Shown one piece after another: positions 6,486 through 47,401 of a stretch of DNA of 63,834 bases. The notes beneath the pieces are model-generated. The model ran no database searches. It was not told where the DNA came from and was given only the letters and a program-made list of their open reading frames with translations. The stretch is from an uncultured Gammaproteobacteria bacterium. Its GTDB lineage: Bacteria > Pseudomonadota > Gammaproteobacteria > Pseudomonadales > Pseudohongiellaceae. The stretch covers positions 1 through 63,834 of the forward strand of contig CAJXPR010000004.1 of the NCBI GenBank assembly GCA_913058135.1, read 5' to 3'. Made by a program: the position numbers and the translations under genes. How positions within the stretch are numbered: the first letter of the stretch is position 1; each line of letters opens with the position of its first letter.

Positions 6486-9925
<3,440 letters not shown>

Positions 9926-11802: not shown

Positions 11803-11879
11803 TGGCGCACCCGGAGAGATTCGAACTCCCGACCAAGTGGTTCGAAGCCACCTACTCTATCCAGCTGAGCTACGGGTGC
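11803..11879 (-). tRNA. tRNA-Arg (anticodon UCG)
   Basis: The minus strand folds into a complete 77-base cloverleaf with encoded CCA: acceptor GCACCCG/CGGGTGC with discriminator G, D arm GCTC..GAGT, anticodon arm with loop CTTCGAA (anticodon TCG, reading CGA and possibly other CGN codons) and T arm with loop TTCGAAT. It has its own near-consensus promoter 11 bases upstream, but no terminator close downstream, because island sequence follows the CCA end. This is the intact copy of the integration target. Confidence 0.96.
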
Positions 11880-26960: not shown

Positions 26961-27850
26961 GATTGACACTAAGCGGCCTGCTCCTGGTCGTCGCCTTTAT
27001 CACTTCAACCGCCCAGGCGCAGGCGGAGGCACAGCTCAGCGGACGGGAAATCCTTGATCGGGTAGAGGACAACCAGCGCGCTGTTTCGGACGCTGCGTTC
27101 AACCGCATTCAGCTGTCCAGCTGCCGCTTTGGCCTGCAGAATAACCAGATCACCTGCGCCGAACGCCCGCGCGTCAAGGCGCTGGAGTCGGTCAGCATCA
27201 ATACCGGCGTCGACAACCGCGACACCCAGTCCATTTCCATCGTGCTGGAACCGGCGGCCGAGCGTGGCATCGGCATGCTCAGTTACGCCTATGATGACCC
27301 CGAACGTGATAACGAGACCTGGCTTTACCTGTCTGCCCTGGGCCAGGTAAAACGCATCGCCAGTGGCAACTCCGACGATGATTCAGAGTCAGCGTCACTG
27401 TTCGGCTCCGAGTTCACTACCGAAGACCAGGACACCGGCAAGCTGGAGGAATACGACATCAGTATTCTGGAGGAAGGCACCGAGTCCGGTCGCGATGTCT
27501 GGATCATTGAAACCATCCCCAACGAAGACCGTGCCCGAAAAACCCGTTATGCCCGCACGGTACAGTATGTCGACAAGGAGCGCTTCGTCGTGCTGAGAGC
27601 AGACATGTATGACCGCCAGGGGCGGGAAATCAAACGCTTGATGGCGTCCCGTATTGAACAGGTCAACGGCGTGTGGACAGCCCGCTCCCTGACCATGATG
27701 AACCTGGTAGCCAACCGCCTGTCCAATATGGCGATACTGGAAATCAATTCCGGCATTGACGTACCAGAAAATTTTCTGACGCCAAGAACACTGACCGACG
27801 TTGCTTTTCGCGAAGCTGAACTCAGCCGCATTCGTGCGCAGGTCGATTGA
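26957..27850 (+). CDS. LolA-like outer-membrane lipoprotein-sorting protein
   Basis: A 297-residue periplasmic protein with a signal peptide (1-22, ending AQAQA). The remainder has the half-barrel pattern of the outer membrane lipoprotein-sorting protein family (LolA/LppX fold), with WLYLSALGQVKRIA, GSEFTTEDQ and VWIIETIPNEDRARKTRY as recognisable blocks. Proteins of this family commonly partner MMPL transporters and carry a lipid or lipid-like ligand through the periplasm. It is translationally coupled to the MMPL gene upstream, and the next gene begins within or just after its end. Confidence 0.85.
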   Translation: MRLTLSGLLLVVAFITSTAQAQAEAQLSGREILDRVEDNQRAVSDAAFNRIQLSSCRFGLQNNQITCAERPRVKALESVSINTGVDNRDTQSISIVLEPAAERGIGMLSYAYDDPERDNETWLYLSALGQVKRIASGNSDDDSESASLFGSEFTTEDQDTGKLEEYDISILEEGTESGRDVWIIETIPNEDRARKTRYARTVQYVDKERFVVLRADMYDRQGREIKRLMASRIEQVNGVWTARSLTMMNLVANRLSNMAILEINSGIDVPENFLTPRTLTDVAFREAELSRIRAQVD

Positions 27851-27891
27851 AACCCGACTGGCTGTCTATGCTGGAGCCCGGATTGTCGCCA

Positions 27892-29352
27892 ATGCCTGTT
27901 GATTGCAAATTCCGACGCCATTTATTGAGCGTGCTGGTATGTCTGCTGCCCGCTGGGAGCCCGGTATCTGCGCAGGACAGTGACGCCGACGCCTTCCCGG
28001 ATTCAGTGGAATTTGATCCTGGCGCTTTTGATGATGCAGCGTTCGATGACAGTATGTTTGATGGCGCCGGTCTGTTCGAGGCCAACGCCAGCGAGCCTGG
28101 CAATTTCCGTTTCCAACTCAGCCAGCAAACGGTAGCGCATCTCAGCAGGCATCGCTACAGCACACCCTCAGGGGCAGCCGGGACACAACATCGTGGCCTG
28201 GAAAACAACCGCCTGGGCCTGAACATCCGTTATCAGAATCCATTTGCCGCTGGCTGGTTACTTCAGGGCAGCGCCCAACTGCGCGCCTATCTGCCCGGCG
28301 ACTATGAACATGACAACCCTGGTCGTGATGGCTGGGAATGGCGTCTGAACGAACTTTTTGTGCAACGCAGCGGCGCAAAAAACAGTTTTTCCTTCGGCCG
28401 TCAAACCATTGTCTGGGGCGAGACCATTGGCCTGTCGGTGCTCGACGTGATCAACACCACTGAGTATCGCGACCTGACTATCATCGACATCGAAGATGCC
28501 CGCCTCAACCAATGGCTGGCGGTCTGGGATCACTTTGGTGAGCACGGCAACTGGTCCAGTTTTGTCAACCTGTACCCGGAGTTTGACCCGGTGCCGGTCA
28601 CCGGCAGCCCGCTGTTTCCGGAACCGGCACGGGTCAATGGGCAGCCCCTGAGACTGGGCAGTCATGACCGGGACCGGCACTTGTTCGAATTCGGCACGCG
28701 CTGGAATCGAAACTTCACTGGCAGCGACATCGCCGTCATGACGGCAAGACTGTACGAAAACCCCTTGCGTTACACTCTCCCCAACGACGGCAGCAACCGG
28801 GCCCGGACACGGATCAACGACTATACGCTGCTGGGTTTCAGTGCCAATCGTGCCATCGATCGTCTCTTGCTGACCTTCGACCTGGCCTACAGCTATGGCC
28901 TGTTGACCGATGTGCTGCAGCGCGTGTCCGATGGCGCCGGCGGCACGCTCTGGCTGCCAGCTTATGATAAACAGAATCGGCTGAGCATGGCGGCCGGCTT
29001 TGAATATGGCATCTCTGCTACCCGGCAGATCAGTCTGGGCATCCAGGCACAACGTTTTATTGGTTTACCACAGGACTCCGCCACCACCCAATGGCGTCAG
29101 CGCGACGCAGACGGCCTTGCCCTCCTTCGCTACAGCCACAGCCTGCGCAACGAAGAATTGGTGCTATCGGCAACCGCGCAGGCGGCGCTGGACGGCGATG
29201 AGGCGTTACTGAATCTGGCTGCAGATTACCGTCTGAGCGATGCCTGGGAGCTTGCCGGTCAGATAATTCTGACCCATGCCGCCCACGACAGCGCGTTGTA
29301 CTTTCTGGAGCGGGATGTGCGCGCCGGCCTGACCCTGAGCTGGTCGTTCTGA
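27892..29352 (+). CDS. DUF1302-like outer-membrane beta-barrel protein
   Basis: A 486-residue exported protein. After a signal peptide (LLSVLVCLLPAGSPVSA) comes an acidic Asp/Phe-rich segment (DPGAFDDAAFDDSMFDGAG). A long series of amphipathic strands follows, ending in aromatic LTLSWSF, as expected for an outer-membrane barrel. FSFGRQTIVWGE and related blocks resemble DUF1302-type proteins. I start at ATG 27892 because it gives a normal signal peptide. A TTG at 27847 overlapping the previous stop, and ATG 27868, are alternatives. It probably completes a three-part envelope pathway with the MMPL and LolA-like proteins. Confidence 0.7.
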   Translation: MPVDCKFRRHLLSVLVCLLPAGSPVSAQDSDADAFPDSVEFDPGAFDDAAFDDSMFDGAGLFEANASEPGNFRFQLSQQTVAHLSRHRYSTPSGAAGTQHRGLENNRLGLNIRYQNPFAAGWLLQGSAQLRAYLPGDYEHDNPGRDGWEWRLNELFVQRSGAKNSFSFGRQTIVWGETIGLSVLDVINTTEYRDLTIIDIEDARLNQWLAVWDHFGEHGNWSSFVNLYPEFDPVPVTGSPLFPEPARVNGQPLRLGSHDRDRHLFEFGTRWNRNFTGSDIAVMTARLYENPLRYTLPNDGSNRARTRINDYTLLGFSANRAIDRLLLTFDLAYSYGLLTDVLQRVSDGAGGTLWLPAYDKQNRLSMAAGFEYGISATRQISLGIQAQRFIGLPQDSATTQWRQRDADGLALLRYSHSLRNEELVLSATAQAALDGDEALLNLAADYRLSDAWELAGQIILTHAAHDSALYFLERDVRAGLTLSWSF

Positions 29353-31631: not shown

Positions 31632-34625
31632 ATGTTCAGCCTCGCCTCACTCCAAGTGTGCCAGTTCCTTCGCCGATCTTCCGGCATTGCCATTGCCTTG
31701 CTGGCCCTGGCCGCCTGCTCACCAGATGCACCGCCGCCAGCGCAACCGAACAATACTGCCGCTCCTGAAAGCCAGGCTGCAGTCAACTATACACGGGTGT
31801 ACCCGCCTCTCCCCGAGGACGCGCTGGATGCGCACATTTATGAGCTTGATAACGGACTGAGGGTCTATCTGACGCAAAATGCCCAGGAACCGCGCTTCTA
31901 CGCAGAAATCGCCGTGCGGGCCGGCAGCAAACAGGATCCGGCCGATGCCACCGGCCTGGCGCACTACCTTGAGCATCTGTTGTTCAAAGGCAACCAGTCG
32001 CTGGGTACCCTGGACTACAGCGCCGAACAACCTTATCTGGAGCAGATTGAAGCACTCTACGAGCAGCATTTCAGCGAGACTGACGAACAGCGCCGCGCCG
32101 AGATCTACGCGGAAATCAATCGGGTTTCGCAGGAAGCGTCAATGTATGCAATACCCGGTGAGCTGGATACGCTCTACAGCGGCATGGGCGCCAGCGGCCT
32201 GAACGCACATACCTGGCACGAGGAGACTGTTTACAAGGTCAGTCTGCCTGCCAACCGTCTGCGGCAGTGGGCCGCCATCGAGGCTGATCGATTTGTCGAT
32301 CCGGTGTTCCGGCTGTTTCACACCGAACTGGAGGTAGTCTATGAGGAGAAAAACCGTACCCTGGACAACCGCGACCGTATCTCCTACTACGCCCTGGCTA
32401 ACCTGCTGTACAAGAACCATCCCTACGGCCAGCAATCCACCATCGGTGACGCCGAGCATCTGAAAAACCCTTCGCTGGTCTATATTCAGGAATATTTTGA
32501 TACCTGGTATGTGCCCAACAACATGGCCATTTTCATCAGCGGCGATATTGATATCGATGAAACCATGCAGGTCATCAGCGAAGAGTTTTCCGACTGGGAA
32601 GCGAAGCCGCTGCCGCAGCAACAGACCTGGCAGGAAGACCCGATCACGTCAGTGGAACGTGTCACGGTGACCTATCCGGGACAGGAAGAAGTGCAGATGG
32701 CATTCCGCACGGTGCCCCATGGGCATCCGGATCAGGAAGCGCTGATGCTGCTGGACATGATTCTGGACAATCGCACCGCCGGGCTGATCAACCTCAACCT
32801 GAACCAGCGCCAGCGTGTGCAGGCGGCCGGTTCATCGCCCGAGTTTCTCAATGACTACGGTTCCCAGCGCCTGTGGGGCGTGCCGCGCGACGGCCAGACC
32901 CTGGCCGAGGTCGAAGCTCTGCTGCTGGAGCAGCTGGACATCATCAAGCGCGGTGAATTCGAGGACTGGATCCTGCCCGCCATTATCAATGATTTCCGCC
33001 GCATGAACATGCGTGGCCTGGAATCAAACACTGCCCGGGTGGCGGACATGCGATCGGCATTTCTGTCCGATACTGACTGGACCTATCACATCGATCAGAT
33101 GGCCAGACTGGAAGCCGTCACCCGCCAGGACGTCATTGATGTCGCCAATCGCTATTTCGGCGACGACAACTATGTCGCCGTGCATCGTGTTGATGGCCCC
33201 GCCGTGATCCCGCCGGTCGACAAACCGCAAATTGACCCGGTACAGATTGATCCCAGTCGTCAGTCAGAGTTTGCCGCGCAGATTCTGGCCATGCCCTACG
33301 AGGAAATCGAACCCACGTTCCTGGAGGCCGGCCGCGACTATGAAATCAGCGAGTATGCGCCGAATGTGCCTTTGTACTATGCCCGCAATCCACTGAACGA
33401 GCTGTTCACGCTCAATATCAGCATAGACGTGGGCACTGAACACAATGACCTGTTGAGCCTGGCCAGCTCGCTGATGGGCAAAGCCGGAACGGCGGACCTG
33501 TCGGCCGAAGAGCTGCAGAAAGAATGGTATCGGCTGGGCAGCGACTTCGGCCTGAGCAGCAGTGCTAACGAAACCAGTATTGCCATCACGGGCCTGGACT
33601 CACAGTTTGAGGAAACTCTGGCGCTGATGCTGGAACTGATCAGTGACCCGCGCGCCGACGAAGACACCTTCGCCGAGCTGAAACGGACCATTCTGGAGGC
33701 GCGCCGCAACCAGCGCGAAGATCCACAGGCGATCAGCCAGGCATTATACCTGTACAACCGTTATGGCGAAGACTCGCCAATGCTGCAGGCAATGAGCAGC
33801 GATGCCATAGAGGCAGTAGAGCTCGAAGAACTGCTGGCGCTGATCAGCAACCTGCAACAATACCAGCACCGCATCAGCTATACCGGCTCCATGCCGCTGG
33901 AACGTGTCACCGCCATCCTCAGAGAACATCACCAGCCCGGTGACCAGTTGCAGGAACCGCCGCCCTACGAGTACCGGCGTGCGCGTGAGATTGCCGATAA
34001 CGAAATCTATGTCATACATCGGGAAACCGCGCAGTCACAGGTCCGTCTGGAGTTTCCGGACGGCACTTACGAAGAAGATCTGGTGGTGCCTGCATCGGTG
34101 TACAACAGCTACTTCGGCACCAGCATGTCCAGCGTGGTATTCCAGGAATTGCGCGAAGCACGCGCGCTGGCGTATTCGGCAGCGGCCAACTATTCACAGG
34201 GCGGACGGCCGCAGGTGCAGACCCTGGTGCTGGGCGCCATCGGCTCGCAGAACGACAAGGCCGTGGAAGCCACAGCCGCCTTTGTTGACCTGTTCGACAA
34301 TATGCCACGCTCCGGCGATCGATTCGACGATGCCGTCAATGCACAAATCAATCGTTACCGCACCTCCACCATCGGTTTCCGGCAGATCCCCGGCACCGTT
34401 TACGCCTGGCAGCAGCTGGGTCTTGATGGTGACCCGCGGCGGCAACGCTTTGCCCAACTGCAGGAGATGACACTGGAAGACCTGCTACAGTTCCAGCAGG
34501 CACATGTCGCCGGTCGCGCCAAACTGATCTCCATCGTCGGCGACACCAGCCGCATTGATATGGACGCGCTGACCGAGCTGGGTGAGATTCGGAAACTGAC
34601 TGTCGACGACGTTTTTGTGGAGTAG
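31632..34625 (+). CDS. M16 family zinc metallopeptidase lipoprotein (two-half, pitrilysin type)
   Basis: A 997-residue exported peptidase. The signal ends in a lipobox with Cys29 (ALAAC). The inverted zinc motif HYLEH (His111, Glu114, His115) is intact, with the downstream acidic ligand in ELEVVYEEKNR. The C-terminal half repeats the fold without zinc residues, as usual. M16 enzymes degrade or mature peptides inside a closed chamber. The stop is four bases before an ABC ATPase gene, opening a compact row that also has a permease, a PDZ lipoprotein and two propeller proteins. Substrate unknown. Confidence 0.92.
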   Translation: MFSLASLQVCQFLRRSSGIAIALLALAACSPDAPPPAQPNNTAAPESQAAVNYTRVYPPLPEDALDAHIYELDNGLRVYLTQNAQEPRFYAEIAVRAGSKQDPADATGLAHYLEHLLFKGNQSLGTLDYSAEQPYLEQIEALYEQHFSETDEQRRAEIYAEINRVSQEASMYAIPGELDTLYSGMGASGLNAHTWHEETVYKVSLPANRLRQWAAIEADRFVDPVFRLFHTELEVVYEEKNRTLDNRDRISYYALANLLYKNHPYGQQSTIGDAEHLKNPSLVYIQEYFDTWYVPNNMAIFISGDIDIDETMQVISEEFSDWEAKPLPQQQTWQEDPITSVERVTVTYPGQEEVQMAFRTVPHGHPDQEALMLLDMILDNRTAGLINLNLNQRQRVQAAGSSPEFLNDYGSQRLWGVPRDGQTLAEVEALLLEQLDIIKRGEFEDWILPAIINDFRRMNMRGLESNTARVADMRSAFLSDTDWTYHIDQMARLEAVTRQDVIDVANRYFGDDNYVAVHRVDGPAVIPPVDKPQIDPVQIDPSRQSEFAAQILAMPYEEIEPTFLEAGRDYEISEYAPNVPLYYARNPLNELFTLNISIDVGTEHNDLLSLASSLMGKAGTADLSAEELQKEWYRLGSDFGLSSSANETSIAITGLDSQFEETLALMLELISDPRADEDTFAELKRTILEARRNQREDPQAISQALYLYNRYGEDSPMLQAMSSDAIEAVELEELLALISNLQQYQHRISYTGSMPLERVTAILREHHQPGDQLQEPPPYEYRRAREIADNEIYVIHRETAQSQVRLEFPDGTYEEDLVVPASVYNSYFGTSMSSVVFQELREARALAYSAAANYSQGGRPQVQTLVLGAIGSQNDKAVEATAAFVDLFDNMPRSGDRFDDAVNAQINRYRTSTIGFRQIPGTVYAWQQLGLDGDPRRQRFAQLQEMTLEDLLQFQQAHVAGRAKLISIVGDTSRIDMDALTELGEIRKLTVDDVFVE

Positions 34626-34629
34626 CGTC

Positions 34630-35568
34630 ATGGCACGGAACAGCCCAGACCTCCCGAACCCGGTATTGTCTATTGCAGCGCTGGACAAGCGTTACGGCGC
34701 GACCCATGTGCTGAACCAGCTGAGCCTCAATGTCGAACGCGGCGCCATTCATGGACTGGTCGGCCTCAACGGGTCAGGTAAGACCACAACACTGGAATGC
34801 GTGTTGGGTATGCAGGCTTTCCAGGCAGGCGAACTGAAAGTTCTGGGCAGGGAACCGACCAGGCTTTGGCAAGGCCGGGGTGACGTTGTTGGTATTTTTG
34901 ATGTGCCCAGTCTGCATCCGGCCCTGACCGTTCGCCAGGTGCTTGAACATGCACGTCTGATCTGCGGCAGGCCGGTGCGCAGCCCGGCCGAGGTCGAAGA
35001 CTTGCTGGGAATCAGCCGCTACAGCGGATACAAGATCAGACAACTGTCACTGGGCAATCGGCGCCGTGCGTCCATTGCCCACGCACTGATCGGTCAGCCT
35101 GAATTTATTGTGCTGGATGAGCCTTTTAACGGCCTCGATGCCGGCGGCGTGGACGATGTGCTGGCCCTGATCAAACAACTGAATCACGACCATGGGACTA
35201 CCTTCCTGCTGTCCAGCCACCAGTTGGCCTATCTGGAGAGTATCTGTACCCACCTGGCCATCCTGCATCGCGGTCGTATTGTCCTGAACGACAGCGTCGA
35301 AAGCCTGTTCCATGACCGGCAGACCCGCCTTGATGTGCGCTGTGACCAGCCCGACAGAGCCATCGCCCTGCTCGCCGAGGTGCCCGGCGTCAGTGACATC
35401 ACCCGTGACGGCGACGCCGGGCACGCCCTGTTTGGCATGACCCTGACTGACGTGGAAGCAGCAGCCATAAACAGTGCCCTGGTCCTGGCAGGCATTTCGG
35501 TTTCCGGCCTCGAAATGCGCCGTCCCAGTCTGACCCAGCTCTTCCACGATATTGTCGAGGCGCACTGA
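34630..35568 (+). CDS. ABC transporter ATP-binding protein
   Basis: A 312-residue cytoplasmic ATPase of the CcmA/NatA type. Walker A is GLNGSGKTT, the signature is LSLGNRRR (a variant of LSGGQ), Walker B is FIVLDEPF and the switch is SSHQ. About 90 C-terminal residues form an extra domain after the ATPase core. ATG 34630 has GGAG upstream, overlapping the M16 stop. Its stop overlaps the start of the permease gene by one base. Whether it exports or imports, and what, is not evident. Position beside an M16 peptidase would fit peptide export, but no precursor gene was seen. Confidence 0.9.
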   Translation: MARNSPDLPNPVLSIAALDKRYGATHVLNQLSLNVERGAIHGLVGLNGSGKTTTLECVLGMQAFQAGELKVLGREPTRLWQGRGDVVGIFDVPSLHPALTVRQVLEHARLICGRPVRSPAEVEDLLGISRYSGYKIRQLSLGNRRRASIAHALIGQPEFIVLDEPFNGLDAGGVDDVLALIKQLNHDHGTTFLLSSHQLAYLESICTHLAILHRGRIVLNDSVESLFHDRQTRLDVRCDQPDRAIALLAEVPGVSDITRDGDAGHALFGMTLTDVEAAAINSALVLAGISVSGLEMRRPSLTQLFHDIVEAH

Positions 35569-36428
35569 TGGACGGATTTGTCACTGCCCTCAAGGCCGAA
35601 GTCTTTGTCGCCCTGCGGAGCAACGGAACACGACTCGTGGTTGTATTGCCGGCACTTGTCAGCAGCCTGCAGTTGCTGCTGGTCAGCTTTCGCAATGCGG
35701 GCGAACAGGCGCGCGAGGCGCTGTCGGGTCAGGGCTTCGGCCAGACATCTGTTGAAGGCGCGGACGCCTGGGGTGCGCTGGTGGATGCCATGTCCACGGG
35801 TCTGACGCTGATCGGACTGACCCTGGTCGCGTACGCCGCCTGGAGTTTTGCTGGCGACCGGGACAGCGGCGCACTCCGGCATTTGCTGATCCGGCGCGTC
35901 AGCCGACGGGCGCTGGTAGCGGCCAAGCTGGTCACCGCACACATCGTTGGCATGCTGTCAGTGCTATTAATGCTGGCCATGGCGGCCCTGGTCGCCCACG
36001 GTCTATGGGATTTTGGCCCGGTCGTGGAAGATGGTTATGAATTGATCGGCACACAGGAGATTTACGCCGAGATCCGCCTGGGACTGACGCTGGCGTTGAT
36101 ACCGCTGCCCGCGGCCATCGCCTTGGCCACACTTGTATCCGTCAGTACCAATAATGCCACACAGGCCATCACCGCCGCGCTGGGTCTGACCCTGGCGCTG
36201 AACATATTCAAGGGCCTGATGGGCGACGCTTCCGATTATCTGTATGCCAGCTATCAGGCGTCGCTGCTTGATGAGTCCTATCTGAGCGATGTCAGCCGCC
36301 TGGTGCGCGGCTTCTCTGATGTGCTGATCGACCCGGCCACCCTGCAACTCAATCAGTGGGCCCCCTGGCCGCAAATGCTGGTTATGGTGCTGGCCAGTCT
36401 GATTATTGTGCAATACCGGAAACTGTGA
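35568..36428 (+). CDS. ABC-2 type transporter permease
   Basis: A 286-residue inner-membrane protein with about six helices and the ABC-2 permease pattern. A cytoplasmic N-terminal stretch is followed by a helix and a long loop. Then comes SFAGDRDSGALRHLLIRRVSRRALVAAK, the segment that contacts the ATPase in NatB/NosY-like permeases. Start and stop overlaps (TGATG) tie it to the ATPase upstream. A 41-base gap with its own ribosome binding site leads to the PDZ lipoprotein gene. Confidence 0.88.
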   Translation: MDGFVTALKAEVFVALRSNGTRLVVVLPALVSSLQLLLVSFRNAGEQAREALSGQGFGQTSVEGADAWGALVDAMSTGLTLIGLTLVAYAAWSFAGDRDSGALRHLLIRRVSRRALVAAKLVTAHIVGMLSVLLMLAMAALVAHGLWDFGPVVEDGYELIGTQEIYAEIRLGLTLALIPLPAAIALATLVSVSTNNATQAITAALGLTLALNIFKGLMGDASDYLYASYQASLLDESYLSDVSRLVRGFSDVLIDPATLQLNQWAPWPQMLVMVLASLIIVQYRKL

Positions 36429-36469
36429 CTGACATGAGCGGTCAAGAGTGTATACAAGGGAGGTCCGCC

Positions 36470-37423
36470 ATGCGATCTGATTTCTGCTTACTGCTGCTCA
36501 GCCTGACTTTGTTGAGCGCCTGCATCAGCTACGAACCCAGACAACGGGTGCCGACATTGGCATTGTCGCCGGACACAGCGGTGCTGGCCAGCAACACAGG
36601 CGCTGCGACGACGCCCGGTGTCAGTTTCGGTTTGACCGGCGGCCTCAACGAAAGTGATTCACTGACCAATATCAGTATTTTGCCAGGCATTCGGGTTCGG
36701 GCTGTGGTGCCCGGTGGTGCCGCCGAGCGTGCGGGCATTCGCGCCGGCGATGTCATCCTCAGTATCAACGGTAGCGAAAGCAACCATCCTGATGTACTGG
36801 ATGCGCTGGCACTGAACACCACTGAGGCAAGCGACTTTGAGTTTGAGGTACGGCGCAACACCACGGTGTTCATGGCCACTGTCGAGGTGACGCCGGTGAC
36901 TGCACAACAGGCCGAGCCGGTTGAACTGTACCGGGCCGATCCGGTGCTGATGCGGGCAGGCTTCAGTACTGAACTGATGCAGGATCCGGCAGGCCGTCGG
37001 GTCTCTGGCGCACGCGTGGTCCGCCTGTTTGATGACAGCCCACTGACAATGGCCGACATCGGTATTGATGACATCATTCTGGCCATTGATGGCAGACCCG
37101 TTGAGTCGGCTCAGGGGCTGGTGACCACACTGACACAGCGCTATGAGCCGGGTGACGATGTCACGCTTAGCGTCAGTCGGGGCAACCGCATTCGTGAACA
37201 GCGCGTTGAGCTGTGGCATCCTGGCCGCAAGCTGAGCAGACTCAGTCTGTGGCCCCTGTTCCGCTACGAATCGACACTGAACCCGGACCAGACCCGGCTT
37301 ACCGTTGGCGACCTGATATTGTTCTCGTTATTTAGCTATCAACACAGCGGTGCAGAGCGCGAGTACAATGTGCTGGGGCTATTCCGTTCAGCCAGCGACT
37401 ACGGCGAATTGATTGAGGAGTAA
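36470..37423 (+). CDS. Lipoprotein with two PDZ domains
   Basis: A 317-residue envelope protein. The signal ends in the lipobox LLSAC. PDZ domain 1 is at about residues 70-145 (VVPGGAAERAGIRAGDVILSING) and PDZ domain 2 at about 185-265 (SPLTMADIGIDDIILAIDGRP). No protease domain is attached, so it may recruit C-terminal tails or regulate the M16 peptidase encoded nearby (inference). ATG 36470 is supported by GGGAGG seven bases upstream. Five bases separate its stop from the first propeller gene. Confidence 0.82.
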   Translation: MRSDFCLLLLSLTLLSACISYEPRQRVPTLALSPDTAVLASNTGAATTPGVSFGLTGGLNESDSLTNISILPGIRVRAVVPGGAAERAGIRAGDVILSINGSESNHPDVLDALALNTTEASDFEFEVRRNTTVFMATVEVTPVTAQQAEPVELYRADPVLMRAGFSTELMQDPAGRRVSGARVVRLFDDSPLTMADIGIDDIILAIDGRPVESAQGLVTTLTQRYEPGDDVTLSVSRGNRIREQRVELWHPGRKLSRLSLWPLFRYESTLNPDQTRLTVGDLILFSLFSYQHSGAEREYNVLGLFRSASDYGELIEE

Positions 37424-37428
37424 GTGGC

Positions 37429-39039
37429 TTGATCACGGACAGGCGCAAACAACAGGCAATCGTTCTGGCCCTGGTAGCACTGACAGCAATGCTTGTGCCG
37501 GCCGCACCGACGCAGGCGCAGCCTGCCAGCCGGCAACTCAATTTCATCGCGTCCGAATTTCCGGCACCGGACTGGCCCAACCAGATGGCCATGGCCGACC
37601 TGAACGGCGATGGTCGTAACGATCTGATTGTACCCCGCTGGACCGTCGGAACCGGGCGTCAGTTGCTGGTTTACCTGCAGCAGAGCAATAACCGTTTCCC
37701 CGCCCAGCCCTCCAGATATATTGCCATCGTTCCGGAAATTGTTGCGGTCAGTTTTGCCGATATCCGGCCGGAGGCAGGCGAAGAGTTACTGTTATTGACC
37801 GGCACCGGCGCATTCAGTCTGTCATCCGCGATCGATGGCTACAGTGGCAATATCCGGCCACTGTTTGACTGGCCACTGATCGCTGCCATTCCCGATCGCC
37901 GGGTGACAGAGTTTCTGCCGCCTCCGACAGATATCAACAACGATGGTCATGTGGATCTGCTCCTGCCCGGAACAGACGGTCATGGTGTTTTCCTGGGTGG
38001 CCCGGATGAACAGTTCACGCTGGTGCAGCAATTCAGTACTGTCAACGAAGACCTGGACCCCGCCGACCTGCCTGACAGCGCCGGGCGCTTCACTACACAG
38101 GTACAATTCAACCGCCAGGACGGCCTGGTGGTCAGCCTTCAGGCTCGCCCCAACTCGGCGTTTGCGGACTTCCTCGACGACGCACACAACGACGACAGCA
38201 ACCTCCTGCTTGAGCGCAGCCTGTGGTTGCCGCCGGCGGCGTTTGCCAACATTAATCGGGCCGACAGCAGCGACATTGTGTTTCTCAATATTGGTGACGA
38301 TATCCGCGGCCAGATCAATGTCCTGACTCAACACACAGGTCAACAAACGGGCCAACAACCGGACCAGCAATACAATGCGTCCCCTGATTGGCAGGGACCC
38401 ATCGACATGGAGGGTGACATTTACCTGCAGGAGATCAATGGCGATGGCCTGACCGATGTCATGCGCGTGACGGAGGATGGTAATGACTGGGACGTTTATT
38501 TCTATCTGAACCGCGGCGGCGATTTTGATTTCGACCAACCCGATCAGGTCATGCGATTCAGCGGCTACGATGTGCAAATCAACATCACCGATATCACCGG
38601 CAGTGGCGACCCTGAACTCGGTGTCAGCTACTATACCATCCCTGTAGTTAACGCGATTCGTAATACCAGTATCGTGCGTACACAACTTCTGTACGGCAAC
38701 AATGGCGAGCGGGAGCAGTTCCGCTTCAATAACCGCCCCGACTTCCGCCTGGAAGAGAATTTTTCTCCCAGCAATATCCGCGGCCTGTCCAGCCCGATCA
38801 GGCTGGATACTGATCTGGACGGTGATGGACGTATTGACGCGCTGTATCTGACCGATGATGGCACGCTCGCTGCCAGGCACATAGACGCCAATCTGCAATT
38901 TGCCAGTGAACCGTTTTGGCAGTACGTGCCACAACGCACTATTATTGCCTTTAGTGTGCAGGATCTGAACGCAGACGACACACCTGATCTGCTGCTCTAT
39001 CATTCGAATACCATTACCGTGCTGGTATCCTCGCCATGA
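37429..39039 (+). CDS. Secreted FG-GAP/VCBS-repeat propeller protein 1
   Basis: A 536-residue exported protein. A signal peptide (1-33, ending PTQAQ) precedes repeats with Ca-binding loops of the DxNxDG type: DLNGDGRNDLI, DINNDGHVDLLLPG, EINGDGLTDVMRV and DLDGDGRIDALYL, plus degenerate ones. This is the FG-GAP/VCBS propeller pattern. No catalytic domain is visible. TTG 37429 is the start, with GAGGAG eight bases upstream. The stop overlaps the second propeller gene by four bases (ATGA). The two proteins look like diverged paralogues. Confidence 0.85.
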   Translation: MITDRRKQQAIVLALVALTAMLVPAAPTQAQPASRQLNFIASEFPAPDWPNQMAMADLNGDGRNDLIVPRWTVGTGRQLLVYLQQSNNRFPAQPSRYIAIVPEIVAVSFADIRPEAGEELLLLTGTGAFSLSSAIDGYSGNIRPLFDWPLIAAIPDRRVTEFLPPPTDINNDGHVDLLLPGTDGHGVFLGGPDEQFTLVQQFSTVNEDLDPADLPDSAGRFTTQVQFNRQDGLVVSLQARPNSAFADFLDDAHNDDSNLLLERSLWLPPAAFANINRADSSDIVFLNIGDDIRGQINVLTQHTGQQTGQQPDQQYNASPDWQGPIDMEGDIYLQEINGDGLTDVMRVTEDGNDWDVYFYLNRGGDFDFDQPDQVMRFSGYDVQINITDITGSGDPELGVSYYTIPVVNAIRNTSIVRTQLLYGNNGEREQFRFNNRPDFRLEENFSPSNIRGLSSPIRLDTDLDGDGRIDALYLTDDGTLAARHIDANLQFASEPFWQYVPQRTIIAFSVQDLNADDTPDLLLYHSNTITVLVSSP

Positions 39040-40820
39040 CCTGTCTCAGCTCTCTCTGTCTTTGTCGCCGTGCAACCGTGTCGCTGCTCCTGGGCCTCAG
39101 TCTGGTCCACACGCTGGTCCATAGCCAGACGACTGACTCACTCCCGGGCTACCGGCCTTTCAACTTTTCACTGCCACCAACAACAGAACGGATACTGGTT
39201 GTCGATGCTGACGGTGATGGGCTTGATGATCTGATGACCTTTGCCGGCAACACTGTCAGCCTGTACTTTCAGTCACCCGCCGGCTTCGACTTCAATGCTC
39301 CCGACACGCAGATCAGCTTTCCGGGCAACGCCGTGGGCTGGGACATCAGTGACAATTATGCTCAGGCAGCGGACAGCGATACCTGGTCACTGCTGGCGCT
39401 GATCGACGGTCAACAGGTACTGCGCTGGTACATTCAGGAACGACAGTTTGTTGCCGCCGGGCCTCTGCTCAGCAACCTTGGCGGATTCCTGGGCCAGGGC
39501 GTATACCGACTCAATTTCTCGCGCGACATCAATGACGATGGCCTGGCCGATCTGATCATTCCGCGCGCAGGTGAACTCGCCCTGCACATCCGCAACCCTG
39601 ACGGCAGTTATCAGCTGCCGCTGACCATTGTTGCTGACATGCAGCTGCGCACTGTGCTGACTCCGGGTAACCCGCGTGACCTCAGCCTTGTCGGCGCTAA
39701 CGGTGGTGAGCCTGTTGACCTGACCCGCGACGTCGGACAGAGCCTGCGCATACCATTGCTTACACTGCGCGACGTCAACGGTGATAACCGCCCGGACCTG
39801 ATCTCCGATACCGATGAACGCCTGGATGTATTTCTGGCCAATGCCGGCAATGCTGATGAGTATTTTCGGGCAACACCCGACTACAGTGTCGACCGTACCG
39901 CGATTCGCGAACGGCTGGGCGAATTTGATATCGACCAGCTCGACTTCGCCAACCTCACCGGTGTGCTGGCACTGACCCATGAAGAGATCCTGCAGGACAT
40001 GAACGGCGACGGCATAGACGACATGATTCTGCGTGAAGGCGGCCGTGTTGCCTTGCATCTGGGCAATGAAGACGGTATCGATTTTGACCAGGCGGACCAG
40101 ATTCTGCGCTCAGGCGGCAATGTACTGAGTGTCTTCCTGCAGGATGAAAATGCAGACGGACAGCCCGACCTGTGGTTATGGCGGGTGGAGCAGATTTCTC
40201 TGGGTGATGTGTTTCTGTGGCTGGCAATATCCGGCACCATCAATATCGAAGCCTTTGTGTACCCCAATGAGGGCGATACCTTCGCCCGCCGTCCGGCTCG
40301 CCGGCTGACCGTCGCGCTGCGCTTCCCCTCGGCGGTGAGAATGATAAGTTCGGTACAGGAAGTGCGTGACCGCGCCAGCGACACCGAGGCGGTTTTGCCA
40401 ACCGCCCGTGGCAGCTTGCTGTCAGACCGTTCCATCGCCGCCCAGACAATGGACGATCTGCTGGTATTGCTGGATGATCAGGTCGAGATTTTTTATCAGG
40501 CACTGGCACCGGAGCCTGAGGCCGATGACGACCGCTTTCTTGCCTCCATTGGTTACCGCCGCGACCGTGACGACTATGAAATTGATGTGCGCCGCATTAT
40601 CGACCAGTTTGATATCGGCGTGAATCGTGACGTAAATGCGGTCAGTGACCGCGAACCTGACATCAGCCTGCCGGTTACCGGCGACGCCCGCCGCGGCGAT
40701 ATCATCACCACCGACCTCAACAATGACGGCGTCGACGACATCATGGTTTTTATCGAGCGCAGCGACACGGCAGTGACCGGTCTGATATGGTTGTCGGACA
40801 TCAATCAGGACATACCATAA
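39036..40820 (+). CDS. Secreted FG-GAP/VCBS-repeat propeller protein 2
   Basis: A 594-residue paralogue-like neighbour of the preceding protein. An N-terminal hydrophobic segment (about 14-29) acts as signal. Calcium-loop repeats include DADGDGLDDLMTF, DINDDGLADLII, DVNGDNRPDLI, DMNGDGIDDMIL and DLNNDGVDDIMVF. A C-terminal part (about 440-560) with fewer repeats is unassigned. The gene is coupled to the first propeller gene (ATGA) and to the small membrane gene downstream (TAATG). Binding of a ligand or partner at the cell surface is plausible; enzyme activity is not indicated. Confidence 0.85.
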   Translation: MTCLSSLCLCRRATVSLLLGLSLVHTLVHSQTTDSLPGYRPFNFSLPPTTERILVVDADGDGLDDLMTFAGNTVSLYFQSPAGFDFNAPDTQISFPGNAVGWDISDNYAQAADSDTWSLLALIDGQQVLRWYIQERQFVAAGPLLSNLGGFLGQGVYRLNFSRDINDDGLADLIIPRAGELALHIRNPDGSYQLPLTIVADMQLRTVLTPGNPRDLSLVGANGGEPVDLTRDVGQSLRIPLLTLRDVNGDNRPDLISDTDERLDVFLANAGNADEYFRATPDYSVDRTAIRERLGEFDIDQLDFANLTGVLALTHEEILQDMNGDGIDDMILREGGRVALHLGNEDGIDFDQADQILRSGGNVLSVFLQDENADGQPDLWLWRVEQISLGDVFLWLAISGTINIEAFVYPNEGDTFARRPARRLTVALRFPSAVRMISSVQEVRDRASDTEAVLPTARGSLLSDRSIAAQTMDDLLVLLDDQVEIFYQALAPEPEADDDRFLASIGYRRDRDDYEIDVRRIIDQFDIGVNRDVNAVSDREPDISLPVTGDARRGDIITTDLNNDGVDDIMVFIERSDTAVTGLIWLSDINQDIP

Positions 40821-41062
40821 TGAAAAAAATTGTCTGGATTAGCTTTATCAGTGCGCTGGTCATCGTCAATGTGCTGGCTTACGCCGCAGACCGCCTGGGG
40901 GATGTCTATATCGCCATGCCCTACCGCCTGGTGGTTGTACTGGGCGTCACCCTGATCAGCTGTGTGTTCGGAGGCGCCTGGGTGCTGATGAACAGGGCAG
41001 ATGAAGAAGTGCCGTCCAACCGGGACACCCGCACGCCAAACCGGACCGATCAGGATCTTTGA
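40820..41062 (+). CDS. Small inner-membrane protein, end of propeller operon
   Basis: An 80-residue protein with two hydrophobic helices (about 4-22 and 33-54) and a short polar C-terminus. I recognise no family. The ATG overlaps the stop of the propeller gene by one base (TAATG), so translation is coupled and the gene is likely real despite its size. A longer reading from 40787 would lie inside the previous gene and has no merit. It is the last gene of the seven-gene row and converges on an SLC13-type permease gene four bases away. Confidence 0.65.
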   Translation: MKKIVWISFISALVIVNVLAYAADRLGDVYIAMPYRLVVVLGVTLISCVFGGAWVLMNRADEEVPSNRDTRTPNRTDQDL

Positions 41063-41066
41063 ACCT

Positions 41067-43088
41067 TTACAGCGGCCAGACCCACAGCAGCACCGGCACG
41101 CTGACTGCAACCACGACAATCTCAACGGGCAAACCCAGTTTCCAGTAGTCACCAAACTTGAAGCCGCTGGGCCCCAGTATCAGGGTATTATTCTGATGCC
41201 CGATCGGTGTCAGAAACGCACAGGATGCGCCTATCGCTACGGCCATCAGGTATGAATCGGGGTTCACACCCAACTGCGCTGCTATGCTGATCGCCAATGG
41301 ACACATCACTGCAGCGGTTGCAGCATTATTCATGAAATCTGACAGCGTCATGGTGACGATCAACACCAGCGCCAATGCCATCACGGGGTTGCCCTGTGCG
41401 ACTGATTCCAGCAATGCCGTCGCCATGACGTCAGCTGTGCCGGTGCTGGCCATGGCACCGGCTACAGGTAACAAAGCACCCAGCAATACAATCACCGGCC
41501 AGTCGATGGCGTCATACACCGCACGCGGCGGCACTATCCGCAAGGCCATGTACGCCAGTACCGCAGCAGAAAACGACACCGCTACGGGTAGTAATCCCAG
41601 CGCCGTGATGGCAATGGCAGCAATAAAGATAGCAACGGCCAGCACTGCCTGCCCTTTGACGGGCACCCGGATATCCCGCGTTGCAAGTGGCACACAGCGA
41701 TAGTCCCCAGCAAATCCTGAGACAGCTTCCGGAACGCCCTGCATCAACAGGACATCACCCGCCTGGATGGTGGTCGAGCGCAAACGTTTGATGGAACGGC
41801 GCCCCTGCCTGGACACCGCCAACAGGTTGATCCCATAGCGCGTACGCAACTCAATGTCGGTGGCCGAGCGCGCCTGCAAGGGCGAGCCCGGCATCACAAC
41901 CAGTTCCTGAATCACCAATTCGTCGGACTTGGCGGGCGCCTTGGCCTCGGCATCTGCGTCATCCGGATTCTTGCCCTGTGCTGTCGATTCACTGCCCGCT
42001 TTTTTGCCGGTGCTCTTGCCGGTGCTCTTGCCAGTACTCTTGCCGGTGCTCTTGCCGGTCGTTTTGGCTGATTTGACGGCGGCGTCTGAGGAACGTTTGG
42101 CAGATCGGGTTTTTTTCCCGTCCACCTTTTTGGCATCGTTGGCATCGGCGGCCTCATCGCCCTCCCCGTCGGTTTCCTCCTGCTCACTGCCGCTTTCGAG
42201 AACTTCCTCTTCCAGCTTCAGTCCAAGACTCGACAGGGCCGCACCCAATGACTCCGGCTCTGCCTCAATGACCAGGATATCGTCTTCCCTCAGTATCCGC
42301 CGTGAATATGGCGCGATCACCCGCACCTCTCCGCGCACCAGGCCGACGATCTGTGCATCGGCTTTTTCCAGTATCACTTCCACTTCACGCAGCGTCTTGC
42401 CGATGGCCTTGCTTTCACCCTGAACCCGGACTTCGGTCAGATAGGTGCCCGTATCAAAGCTGGCGGTTTCAGCATTGCGTCTGGCCGGTACCAGGCGCCA
42501 GCCCAGCAATCCAACAAACAATATGCCAACCACCGTGACCGAAAGGCCCACCGGGGTAAAATCGAACATGGCAAAATGCCCCATGCCCGCTTCTTCGCGA
42601 AAGCCTGAAACGATGAGGTTGGGTGGTGTACCAATCAGGGTAGTCGTGCCGCCCAGAATTGACCCGAATGCCAAGGGCATCAGCACCCGACCTGGCGGCA
42701 GGTTCTGCTTGACGGCAACCTGGATCGCTACCGGCATTAACAGTGCCAGAGCGCCCACGTTATTCATGAAGCCGGACAGAACCGCCGCTAACGCTGTCAA
42801 GGCAAAAATGCTGAGTGTCTGGCCGGCCCCGGCAGGCAACACTTTTTGTGCCAGCGCGTTGACAGCACCGGTGACCTGCAGACCGTAACTGAGCACCAAT
42901 ACACAGGCGACTGTCACCACGGCGGGATGACCGAACCCGGCGAATGCTTCTGCAGCAGGCACCAGCCCGGTCAGAATACAGGCCAGCAGGGCACCGCCTG
43001 CGACCATATCGTGGCGCCAGCGACCCCACATGAACATGCCCATGCTGCAGACCAGAATGGCAATAATCATCAACTGGTCTACCGTCAT
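41067..43088 (-). CDS. SLC13-type permease with TrkA-C domains
   Basis: A 673-residue inner-membrane anion transporter of the SLC13/ArsB-like group. Both halves have the hairpin motifs of the family: LSGFMNNVGALALLMPVA and GTPPNLIVSG first, then MTLSDFMNNAATAAVMCP. Two TrkA-C (RCK-C) domains lie in the central cytoplasmic loop (about 200-285 and 385-460). The linker between them is low-complexity Lys/Ser/Thr/Gly. Family members move sulfate, dicarboxylates or similar anions. ATG 43088 has AGGGGA upstream; an earlier in-frame start at 43151 is less likely. Confidence 0.85.
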   Translation of the reverse strand: MTVDQLMIIAILVCSMGMFMWGRWRHDMVAGGALLACILTGLVPAAEAFAGFGHPAVVTVACVLVLSYGLQVTGAVNALAQKVLPAGAGQTLSIFALTALAAVLSGFMNNVGALALLMPVAIQVAVKQNLPPGRVLMPLAFGSILGGTTTLIGTPPNLIVSGFREEAGMGHFAMFDFTPVGLSVTVVGILFVGLLGWRLVPARRNAETASFDTGTYLTEVRVQGESKAIGKTLREVEVILEKADAQIVGLVRGEVRVIAPYSRRILREDDILVIEAEPESLGAALSSLGLKLEEEVLESGSEQEETDGEGDEAADANDAKKVDGKKTRSAKRSSDAAVKSAKTTGKSTGKSTGKSTGKSTGKKAGSESTAQGKNPDDADAEAKAPAKSDELVIQELVVMPGSPLQARSATDIELRTRYGINLLAVSRQGRRSIKRLRSTTIQAGDVLLMQGVPEAVSGFAGDYRCVPLATRDIRVPVKGQAVLAVAIFIAAIAITALGLLPVAVSFSAAVLAYMALRIVPPRAVYDAIDWPVIVLLGALLPVAGAMASTGTADVMATALLESVAQGNPVMALALVLIVTMTLSDFMNNAATAAVMCPLAISIAAQLGVNPDSYLMAVAIGASCAFLTPIGHQNNTLILGPSGFKFGDYWKLGLPVEIVVVAVSVPVLLWVWPL
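42004..42057 (-). repeat. 12-bp tandem repeat inside the SLC13 gene
   Basis: About four and a half copies of a 12-base unit (plus-strand TTGCCGGTGCTC) encode repeated Gly-Lys-Ser-Thr in the linker between the two TrkA-C domains. The third copy differs at two bases. The unit length keeps the frame, so copy-number change would only alter linker length. Confidence 0.8.
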
Positions 43089-43284
43089 ACACACGTCCCC
43101 TTTTGTCCTGCTATCGGACCGGTGCCGCCGGCCATTGCCGGTATTAGACACTAACGTCCTGAGCGGGGCAATGCCTCATGGCGATCACCCTGCCTCGCAT
43201 CGAGCTTGTTGTCCGTTTGAGCTTTCTGTTACGCTCCAGCGACCCTGCATTCAATGCAGACCGTGAATAACAAGGAGATTGATC

Positions 43285-43734
43285 GTGAAAACAACAATAT
43301 TCAAAAGAATGATTAACACCCTGGCTTCGGCATCGTTTGTGGTAGTGGTGGCATTGCTGTCTCCCGGGCAGGCCCAGGCTCAAGACCAGGCCCAGGACGA
43401 TGGTCCGGTCTTCGAGTTGCGAACCTACACAGCGACGCCCGGCAACCTGGACAAACTGCTGGCGCGCTTTCGTGATCACACCATGGCGCTGTTTGAAAAG
43501 CATGGCATGACCAATATCGGTTACTGGTTGCCTGTGGATCCGGAAGAAGCCGAAGACACGCTGATCTATTTGCTGAAACACGACAGTCAGGAAGCCGCCA
43601 ATGCATCCTGGCGCGCGTTCGGCGCCGACCCAGCCTGGGCAGTGGTCAATGAAGAATCCAACCGGGATGGTGCCATTTTGCAGGGTGTAGAGCGCAAATA
43701 CCTGACCGCGACCGATTTCTCACAAATGCAATAA
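43285..43734 (+). CDS. Exported NIPSNAP family protein
   Basis: A 149-residue protein. An N-terminal signal peptide (about 1-34, ending GQAQAQ) precedes a NIPSNAP ferredoxin-like domain: VFELRTYTATPGNLDKLLARF, MTNIGYWLP, DTLIYLLKHDSQEAANASWRAF and a terminal KYLTATDFS. NIPSNAP proteins are of uncertain biochemical role, and most bacterial ones are cytosolic. GTG 43285 is favoured over TTG 43279 because AAGGAG ends seven bases before it. It lies between two SLC13 genes on the opposite strand. Confidence 0.85.
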   Translation: MKTTIFKRMINTLASASFVVVVALLSPGQAQAQDQAQDDGPVFELRTYTATPGNLDKLLARFRDHTMALFEKHGMTNIGYWLPVDPEEAEDTLIYLLKHDSQEAANASWRAFGADPAWAVVNEESNRDGAILQGVERKYLTATDFSQMQ

Positions 43735-43765
43735 GTGCGGCACGCAAAGCTTGCGGGCGAGTTGT

Positions 43766-46114
43766 TTACAGAGGCCAGACTATCGGCATCAGTATCGCGC
43801 CCACTATGAATATCAGCAGGGTCAGCGGTAACCCCAGCTTCAGGAAGTCCACAAACCGGTAACCACCCGGCCCCATGACCAGCACGTTGGTCGGGTGCGA
43901 TACCGGACTGGCGACACTGACCGCGGCAGCCAGCGCAACTGCCATCATGGCCGCGTGGGGCTGCACGCCCAGCGCGATACTCACCGACAGGGCTATCGGT
44001 GCCATGATCACCACTAACACTACGGTCGGAATGATCAGCGTGCCCGCCACCGTCAGCAGGTACAGGCTGGCGACCGTCAGCCAGGGACTGTAATCGCCGG
44101 TCAGCATCAACAATTGATCCGACAGATAAATCGCGGCCCCACTGCCCTGCATGGCTGCGCCCAACGGCATCATGCCCGCCAGCACCACAATCGAACGCCA
44201 GTGAATGGCCTTATAGGCCTGCTCCATGTTCAGGCATCGTCCCAGTACCATCAGCGTGGCACCGATCAGTGCGGCAATATAAATCGGCAACAGGCCCAGA
44301 ATGGACAGCAATACCACCAGCGCCATACAGCCGACGGCAATCGGCGCGCGCGACTTGTCTACTTCCGGCGCCGATACCGGGTTCAGAATGATCAGGTCCC
44401 GGTTTCTGTTCAGCGCCGCCAACTGCTTGAGCGGCGCAACCAGCAACAGCGCATCGCCGCGCTGCAGTTCCATATCCCCGAGTCCGGAGCGGTAGGGCCG
44501 ACCGCCGCGCCACAAGGCGGCAACTTCGACCTGCCAGGCCTCCCTCAGTTTCAGGTCGGCGACGGTTTTGTTGTTGATCCATTTGTGCGGATGCATGATG
44601 GCCTCGACCATCGCCAGCTTGCCTTGCTCGAAAATTTTCATATAGGGCGTGGCATCGTCCAGCACACGCAGTTGCTGCAAGCCACGCAACAGATCAAAAT
44701 CTTCCAGGCGTCCCTGCACCAGCAGCAGATCACCACCCTGAATCTCCTCCTCGGCCGGCAGGGGCCGGATAAAATTGCCGTCCCGGAACATTGCCAGCAG
44801 GCGCAGGTCAAATGCCTTGCCCAGCCGGGTGTCACCCACACTGCGCCCGGCCAGTGATGCCTCTTTGGGCACTTTCAGCACCAGCAGGCGTTCATCCAGA
44901 TGGTACTTCTGCTGAACACGCTCCTTGTCGAGCGGGGTCGCACCGATCAGCTGGTATTTCTCACGCAGCGTTTTCAGTACCTTCTCATCACCCTGGACCA
45001 GCAGCTGGTCACCGCTGACAAAGGTATAGTCGGCCAGCCGCGTCCGACGCACAGTTTCGCCGCTAAGCACGGCCAGCAGCCATGACTGTGTTGATTCATA
45101 GAATTCCGCTGCAGTCATGCTCTTGCCGGCCAGTGAAGAATCTTCACCAACGGTGACTTCATACAGACCGGCATCCTCCAGCAGGCGATCATGCAGCACG
45201 GGTGCCTCGCGCTCGATGGACAGTTCGCTCCACTGCCGCAGCAACTTGAACCGGTCCAGACGGCCCTGCGCCAGCAGAATATCGCCGGCCTGCAAACGGG
45301 TAACTGACGACGGCAGAGATTGTGTATGCCCGCCCCGGCTGAGCGCGATAATCATCAAACCCGCAGCCGTGGTCAGCCCCGCTTCACCCAGACTTTTACC
45401 AACCAGCAAGGATGCCTCCGGCACCTGAACTGCAAATATGCGTTCCTGCAGACTGTAGAGTTCGCGCAGATCCCTGCTGTCTCCGGTCTCGGCCACCGGG
45501 TCGCGGGCTGGCAGCCAGTGCCGGCCAATCAGCGCAACAAACGCCGTGCCAACCAGAAGCACTGGGACGGCGATAGGGGCAAAATCAAAAAACCCGAACC
45601 CTTCATAGCCGGCTTCCTGCAGTGCCGTGCTGACCAGCAGGTTGGGAGGCGTACCGATGATGGTGAGGGCGCCGCCGAGCAGGCAACCAAATGCCATGGG
45701 CATCAACAGTCGGGACGGTGTTGCGCCTACCTGACGCGCCACCCCGACCACCACGGGCAGCAACAGAGCCGTGACACCAATATTGTTCATGAATGCGGAC
45801 AGCACCCCGGCAAGTAACATAAAGGTGACGACCAGCGCCAATTCGCTATTACCAGCGATTTTCACCACCCGCAGCCCCATAGCGTCGGCGATACCGGCAC
45901 GGGTGAGTCCGTCACTGAGAATAAACATGGCCCAGATAGTAATCACAGCCGGGTGACTGAATCCGGCGATGGCCTCTTCCGGAGCGACCAGACCGGTGAC
46001 AGCCAGAGAGCACAGCACCAGCAGAGCGACCACGTCCATCCGCAGCCTGTCTGTCGCGAACAACAGCACGGCTACCAGCAGAATGGTCAATACCAGTGCG
46101 ATATCAAATGTCAC
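43766..46114 (-). CDS. SLC13-type permease with four TrkA-C-like domains
   Basis: A 782-residue inner-membrane transporter of the same group as the protein at 41067 but longer. The helical halves carry LSAFMNNIGVTALLLPV and GTPPNLLVSTA. The central cytoplasmic region (about 205-580) holds repeated RCK-C/TrkA-C-like modules, each ending in a pattern like LQAGDILLAQGRLDRF. Substrate is likely an inorganic or organic anion. The start is GTG 46114 with AAAGGA upstream. A candidate promoter lies at 46164-46192. Confidence 0.87.
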   Translation of the reverse strand: MTFDIALVLTILLVAVLLFATDRLRMDVVALLVLCSLAVTGLVAPEEAIAGFSHPAVITIWAMFILSDGLTRAGIADAMGLRVVKIAGNSELALVVTFMLLAGVLSAFMNNIGVTALLLPVVVGVARQVGATPSRLLMPMAFGCLLGGALTIIGTPPNLLVSTALQEAGYEGFGFFDFAPIAVPVLLVGTAFVALIGRHWLPARDPVAETGDSRDLRELYSLQERIFAVQVPEASLLVGKSLGEAGLTTAAGLMIIALSRGGHTQSLPSSVTRLQAGDILLAQGRLDRFKLLRQWSELSIEREAPVLHDRLLEDAGLYEVTVGEDSSLAGKSMTAAEFYESTQSWLLAVLSGETVRRTRLADYTFVSGDQLLVQGDEKVLKTLREKYQLIGATPLDKERVQQKYHLDERLLVLKVPKEASLAGRSVGDTRLGKAFDLRLLAMFRDGNFIRPLPAEEEIQGGDLLLVQGRLEDFDLLRGLQQLRVLDDATPYMKIFEQGKLAMVEAIMHPHKWINNKTVADLKLREAWQVEVAALWRGGRPYRSGLGDMELQRGDALLLVAPLKQLAALNRNRDLIILNPVSAPEVDKSRAPIAVGCMALVVLLSILGLLPIYIAALIGATLMVLGRCLNMEQAYKAIHWRSIVVLAGMMPLGAAMQGSGAAIYLSDQLLMLTGDYSPWLTVASLYLLTVAGTLIIPTVVLVVIMAPIALSVSIALGVQPHAAMMAVALAAAVSVASPVSHPTNVLVMGPGGYRFVDFLKLGLPLTLLIFIVGAILMPIVWPL

Positions 46115-46192: not shown

Positions 46193-46309
46193 TATGATAA
46201 ATATGTATGCCGGCGGGCTGAAGTGGTCTGCACGGGTTTGGTCCGGTGGATCGGGCTGGCCGGGCCACCTGATTGAGCTTTCCCGGGAAATGTGATTATA
46301 TCTGCGCCC

Positions 46310-47383: not shown

Positions 47384-47401
47384 AACCAGCGAGTCCGACT
47401 T

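Follow-up and report, generated by a model that had tools for sequence, protein, structure and literature searches.

Which of seven closely packed envelope genes in an uncultured marine gammaproteobacterium belong to one unit, and what might that unit do? The genes lie at 31632–41062 of the window, as we call the whole stretch of 63,834 nucleotides that was analysed (contig C4 of a 3.78 Mb genome of the family Pseudohongiellaceae). They encode an M16 metallopeptidase, the ATPase and permease of an ATP-binding cassette (ABC) pair, a lipoprotein with two PDZ domains, two FG-GAP proteins (propellers 1 and 2) and a small membrane protein. A sequence-only reading had grouped all seven as one operon. 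Its coordinates, gaps, overlaps and domain names proved exact when the open reading frames (ORFs) and the Pfam matches were rechecked, and the row itself stands. The seven-gene unit does not: genome comparison points to a cassette of five genes (ATPase, permease, PDZ lipoprotein and both propellers, 34630–40820) that is retained, lost and encountered in other contexts as a single block, accompanied by separable outer genes.

The gene order was compared in two sets of loci, which partly overlap in their genomes. The first comprises 20 loci taken from 56 relatives, several of them ending at contig ends; the positive genomes G006, G028 and G033 were left out of this comparison. The second derives from a collection with one genome per species, in which a relative of propeller 2 was confirmed in 106 stretches; 80 of these form the set, and in all 80 it lies in the cassette as far as the DNA extends. 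The genes present follow one order on one strand in 20/20 loci of the first set (M16, ATPase, permease, PDZ, propeller 1, propeller 2, small protein), with overlaps of 1–4 bases being common, and this order is violated in 0/80 loci of the second. Thus the row is not a chance arrangement, and its reading as a compact set of envelope genes conserved between genomes is supported. All seven genes are found in 56 of the 80 loci, the others being incomplete at their ends or devoid of the small gene. Where the DNA allows a test, the five-gene core is complete in 64/64 loci, M16 is present in 61/61 and the small protein gene in 65/76. The titles of these records name Pseudohongiella, Gammaproteobacteria and Pseudomonadales bacteria, with a few odd names (Rhodoferax, Klebsiella) on metagenome bins.

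Among the 56 relatives, orthologues of the permease, propeller 2 and the PDZ protein occur in the same 24 genomes, all of the window's family (PDZ orthologues being counted at E below 1e-70, while 38 genomes give some PDZ match). M16 orthologues (at least 60% identity) are found in those 24 genomes and in one more, G012. Of the relatives, 22 including G012 have the small protein; a search for it in G004, G011 and G024 gave no match. The ATPase and propeller 1, counted in the 20 relatives' loci and not in all 56 genomes, are present in 19 and 20 of them respectively, the absent ATPase corresponding to a contig end.

G012 belongs to the same genus as cassette carriers and is rated 100% complete. 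Its locus (in order DUF1302, SDF, FNR, M16, small protein, CitMHS1) is without exactly five genes, i.e. the ATPase, the permease, the PDZ protein and both propellers, and 77 bases separate the M16 stop from the small-protein start. No orthologue of the permease, propeller 2 or the PDZ protein was found in the genome, while the ATPase and propeller 1 were sought at the locus only, a limit on the claim of loss that counts against the interpretation developed below. In the M16 tree G012 is nested in the cassette-bearing genus (genus support 1.00), beside G008 and G009 (support 0.99), with one node within the genus reaching only 0.11. The absence of the cassette would therefore most simply be a loss. 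By eye, a strong inverted repeat is seen in the G012 interval that separates M16 from the small-protein gene (L139, about 6730–6810); it could represent a terminator or a trace left by cassette loss.

G285 and G354, two species of genus g84 (family f40, same order), present the converse situation. Both carry the five cassette genes, and the matches between their 18-kb regions are confined to these genes (blastp, E 1e-10), besides shadow ORFs inside them. The identities are 72% for the ATPase, 76% for the permease, 63% for the PDZ protein and 59% and 58% for the propellers, and the flanks of the two cassettes are unrelated. Neither locus gives an above-threshold match to M16 or to the small protein, and the two genomes hold no M16 orthologue, the best match scoring 43.8 bits vs 1,695–1,976 for full-length orthologues. 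The permease was not found in two more g84 genomes, G137 and G187. In G285 the cassette is followed by a gene resembling those for glucose/sorbosone dehydrogenases (L137, 15263–16939), to which nothing in the 18-kb region of G354 matches.

Because G012 is without exactly the genes that G285 and G354 have, we take the unit to be of five genes, and the three natural arrangements thus appear to draw the same cassette borders. That relatives might keep only subsets of the row holds in part: two genomes have the core alone, one has the outer genes without it, and the small gene is unrecognisable in 11/76 loci. The five genes might also form a co-transcribed row without a joint machine, the ABC pair and the exported proteins having separate jobs. 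Gene packing is by itself no proof of contact; but these genes stand together in unrelated contexts and are jointly absent in G012, which makes separate jobs very unlikely in our view.

The M16 gene would then be a separable neighbour of the cassette and the small-protein gene a facultative one, both apparently dispensable for its persistence. In 16 sequences of the peptidase the Cys29 of the lipoprotein signal and the zinc motif HYLEH at 111–115 (HxxEH) are invariant. The small protein has two hydrophobic segments (by eye) and no Pfam match, either at E 0.001 or at family cut-off; weaker second copies of it lie elsewhere in three genomes (G017:C26, G028:C11 and G033:C60; E 1e-9 to 1e-8).

The invariant zinc motif, the presence of M16 in every testable locus and matches to YfmF and YfmH, under their cut-offs, speak for a unit of peptidase and ABC pair that processes a peptide and moves it, as the sequence-only reading had envisaged. 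But each occurs without the other: G012 keeps M16 without the ABC pair at the locus, and G285 and G354 show the reverse. Moreover, the small conserved gene encodes a membrane protein. The peptidase being separable from the ABC pair, the peptide-processing reading therefore loses its basis. This natural split ruled out peptide maturation with M16 as our main interpretation, and we regard it as the least probable of the explanations considered here.

The row as found in the window is given in Table 1. The seven products were scanned against Pfam at E up to 0.001. The M16 protein matches Peptidase_M16_C (4.5e-35) and Peptidase_M16 (9.9e-16), the ATPase ABC_tran (3.7e-23), the permease ABC2_membrane_2 (6.9e-13; PF12679 at 48.9 bits vs a cut-off of 27.2), the PDZ lipoprotein PDZ_2 (1.5e-22) and the two propeller proteins FG-GAP_3 (5.2e-18 and 3.7e-14). 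Predicted promoters gave no signal (5 vs 4.6 expected); predicted terminators (12 vs 6.8 expected, 8/12 on the opposite strand) were left out of the interpretation.

Table 1. The seven genes of the row, with window coordinates, strand and spacing.
Feature	Start codon	Coordinates	Strand	Remark
M16 metallopeptidase, 997 amino acids in a single chain, lipoprotein signal		31632..34625	+	apparently separable neighbour of the cassette
ABC ATPase, NosF-like over its whole length, cassette gene 1	ATG	34630..35568	+	4-base gap after M16
ABC-2 permease, six hydrophobic segments, cassette gene 2		35568..36428	+	1-base overlap with ATPase
Two-PDZ lipoprotein, cassette gene 3	ATG	36470..37423	+	41-base gap after permease
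FG-GAP protein (propeller 1), cassette gene 4	TTG	37429..39039	+	5-base gap after PDZ gene
FG-GAP protein (propeller 2), cassette gene 5		39036..40820	+	4-base overlap with propeller 1
Small membrane protein, 80 amino acids, apparently facultative neighbour		40820..41062	+	1-base overlap with propeller 2

What could the five cassette products do together? From their sequences and by analogy with NosDFY and PedA1A2BC, we propose with a probability of about 0.5 that they join in one ATP-driven envelope complex, which would move docked periplasmic propellers and the PDZ protein. The ATPase and the permease, presumably two copies of each, would sit in the inner membrane, where ATP binding and hydrolysis would move periplasmic loops 3 and 5 of the permease, on which the propellers would dock. 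The PDZ lipoprotein, probably in the outer membrane, would bind either the propellers or an exposed protein terminus through its PDZ domains. Force would pass across the membrane to the propellers and the PDZ protein as in either of these systems, the ABC pair powering a cycle of mechanical work on periplasmic proteins, or of their loading, and not pumping small solutes through its helices. To our knowledge, few ABC transporters power periplasmic assembly instead of solute carriage.

In the ATPase the motifs which we take to be Walker A, Walker B and the H-loop are intact, the signature reads LSLGN, and all are conserved in 73 sequences. Among solved structures its best near-full-length match is NosF (7o0y_B; 1.4e-33, residues 19–311 of 317 on 5–292 of 308), which denotes similarity, not orthology. 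For the permease, conservation in 73 sequences (a few genomes being included twice) reaches 0.83 in periplasmic loop 3 and 0.78 in periplasmic loop 5, vs 0.59 in transmembrane segments TM1, TM3 and TM6. The 14 near-species sequences give 0.77 and 0.75 for loops 3 and 5, 0.60 for loop 1 and a mean of 0.61 for the helices. Two other permease families served as controls, their names and topology being our own reading and the means being calculated from the listed rows. The GldF-like control (16 sequences, five helices recognised only) has a mean of 0.90 for the helices, with values of 0.90 and 0.82 for the loops read as periplasmic; the NatB-like control (14 sequences) scores 0.83 in its helices and 0.70 in its large periplasmic loop. 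The pattern of conserved loops and variable helices is thus absent in the first control and only partly present in the second. Loops that stay conserved although half of the helices vary suggest that a periplasmic partner docks on them.

The candidate partners are predicted to be exported. Cys18 of the 317-residue form of the PDZ lipoprotein is invariant in 16 sequences and its C-terminal tail is conserved, while both FG-GAP proteins carry Sec-type signals (by eye). The propellers are homologous to each other (hhalign 99.0%, 8.7e-18). FG-GAP repeats were found in both; in the predicted models the propeller fold is clear for protein 1 and partial for protein 2. The model of propeller 1 aligns with integrin alpha at Z 13.7 (327 residues, root-mean-square deviation (rmsd) 5.4), and unrelated propellers of the cytoplasmic lattice and of intraflagellar transport score alike, up to Z 14.6, so that the likeness to integrin would be of fold only. 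That of propeller 2 aligns with the fungal PVL lectin (Z 9.3, rmsd 11.6) and with part of integrin alphaV (Z 9.2, 142 residues, rmsd 3.6). The propeller fold is thus common to the integrin alpha headpiece, the lectin, protein 1 and parts of protein 2, at 10–22% identity among the integrin and lectin matches listed, which is again resemblance of fold only; in these searches a family missing among the matches is not thereby excluded. Propeller 2 has a conserved middle (LTHEE, QILRSGGNVL, DLWLWRV). The C terminus of propeller 1 is a conserved -[VIM][SA]xP in 17/20 loci, a candidate PDZ ligand that is suggestive only.

An integrin-like fold could mean that a GldA/GldFG-like ABC pair presents the propellers as surface adhesins, in surface assembly or motility. 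Integrin-like folds are often adhesive, the ATPase matches GldA at 6.8e-34, and 1/18 permeases gives a weak GldF match. Nevertheless the GldA match stays at 117.7 bits, far below the cut-off of 402.6, the genomes have a separate GldF-like permease (by eye) and no secretion gene was found in the cassette by Pfam, all of which makes surface assembly distinctly unlikely.

Does the cassette belong to a known system? In their accessible parts, publications on FG-GAP/ABC/PDZ/M16 combinations and on Pseudohongiella genomes name no such operon. As far as PMC7558416 is accessible, its NosDFYL scheme joins an ATPase, a permease, a periplasmic protein and a lipoprotein, and our cassette likewise has a NosF-like full-length ATPase, an ABC-2 permease, dedicated periplasmic proteins and a lipoprotein in one cluster. 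It differs in its lipoprotein, with two PDZ domains instead of the copper protein NosL (no NosL-like Pfam match), and no nosZ-like family was found among the 20 window neighbours scanned. In place of NosD, which is a beta-helix, there are two FG-GAP propellers. The accessible parts of PMC6839425 and PMC12997753 describe PedA1A2BC of Pseudomonas putida as a permease, an ATPase and an exported beta-propeller in one operon, required for lanthanide-dependent growth at low concentrations. The same combination is found here, but PedA1A2BC has a YVTN propeller and a substrate-binding protein, and our cassette has two FG-GAP propellers and a lipoprotein with two PDZ domains; neither of our propellers matches a YVTN-type NCBIfam at E 0.001.

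By analogy with what has been proposed for PedA1A2BC, the propellers could bind a metal or another small molecule that the ABC pair imports or loads. PedC (TIGR03861) is the best NCBIfam match of the permease, and 8/18 permease members match it (best E 0.00022). FG-GAP loops bind calcium, another argument for a solute. But the scores are far under the family cut-offs, both for PedC on the window permease (18.7 vs 241.35 bits) and for PQQ_ABC_ATP (TIGR03864) on the ATPase (111.9 vs 302.25 bits). No substrate-binding protein was found among the five cassette genes by Pfam, and the PQQ-enzyme gene of the window (16105–18294) lies 13 kb off the row. We therefore judge an importer unlikely.

The cassette has the defining features of neither NosDFY nor PedA1A2BC. 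Membership in the Ped, Nos and Gld systems was rejected, as family cut-offs were not reached or partner genes were lacking, and the earlier remark that the PDZ and FG-GAP partners correspond to no familiar system agrees with these comparisons and with the publications consulted. For MacB and LolCDE, the accessible part of PMC10094684 proposes that ATP-driven movement is used on the periplasmic side. The complex proposed here would share this mechanotransmission principle, with a permease of another family; MacB and LolC have a periplasmic domain in the permease (PMC10094684, accessible part). PMC8386196, likewise accessible in part, deals with the type V class of these transporters.

Several observations weigh against the ATP-driven complex that we favour. 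Natural removal of the cassette is represented by one genome and its outside contexts by two, i.e. few cases. NosF is not the first structure match of the ATPase, which is Rv1281c (2e-35, residues 23–247), and the permease profile has no solved-structure match at E 0.1, so that kinship with NosY is unsupported by sequence. Within the permease (73 sequences) periplasmic loop 1 is unconserved (0.59), and TM4 (0.78) and TM5 (0.77) equal loop 5, because of which a substrate path within its membrane part may still exist. The controls comprise few sequences and give mixed results: the NatB-like one has another loop read as periplasmic that reaches 0.94, above its helices, with uncertain topology. 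Lipoprotein sorting and signal peptides were judged by eye, and the models, of single chains, are of moderate confidence (mean predicted local distance difference test scores of 70.6 for propeller 1 and 77.6 for propeller 2).

More tentatively, and with less confidence than in the complex itself, we raise the possibility of a new class of ABC-driven machine, a self-contained travelling cassette in which a NosFY-like motor would move two integrin-like propellers, themselves held by an outer-membrane PDZ lipoprotein, to form a transient intermembrane bridge. With borders apparently drawn by nature, the cassette offers a clean object for studying force transfer from an ABC motor to propellers, as well as the role of PDZ lipoproteins in the envelope. 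It is not rare, given the number of stretches with propeller 2 relatives even where each species is represented by a single genome.

Beyond the relatives, searches of genome samples returned the query's own genome only, for propeller 1 in the class (1/369, E<=1e-8) and for the permease in the phylum (1/398, E<=1e-6); these two samples may have contained no other member of the window's family. The family of G285 gave 1/61 (G285 itself, E<=1e-8), G354 being outside that sample, and plasmids gave no permease match. All these samples are thin outside the family and carry little weight for rare carriers. A search of 390 genomes gave 23 matches, of which the window's family accounts for 13 and f40 for 2; the remaining 8 are partial ABC-2 matches (E 6e-5 to 4e-4) and were dropped as other permeases, their neighbours not being inspected.

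Around the row, a tight group of genes for an MMPL transporter, a LolA-like protein and a protein resembling DUF1302 (under its cut-off) lies upstream at 24195–29352, and all three are also upstream of the locus in G012 (L139). Downstream, two CitMHS transporters (41067–46114) stand between the row and a TAXI/TRAP transporter pair (NMT1_3, DctM; 46292–49423). This pair recurs in relatives, with 65 and 61 ORF matches over 107 loci, which indicates that the neighbourhood is old. Rfam matches in the window are AaHKsRNA22 at 1327–1430 (42.3 bits vs a threshold of 39.8) and a tRNA at 11806–11879.

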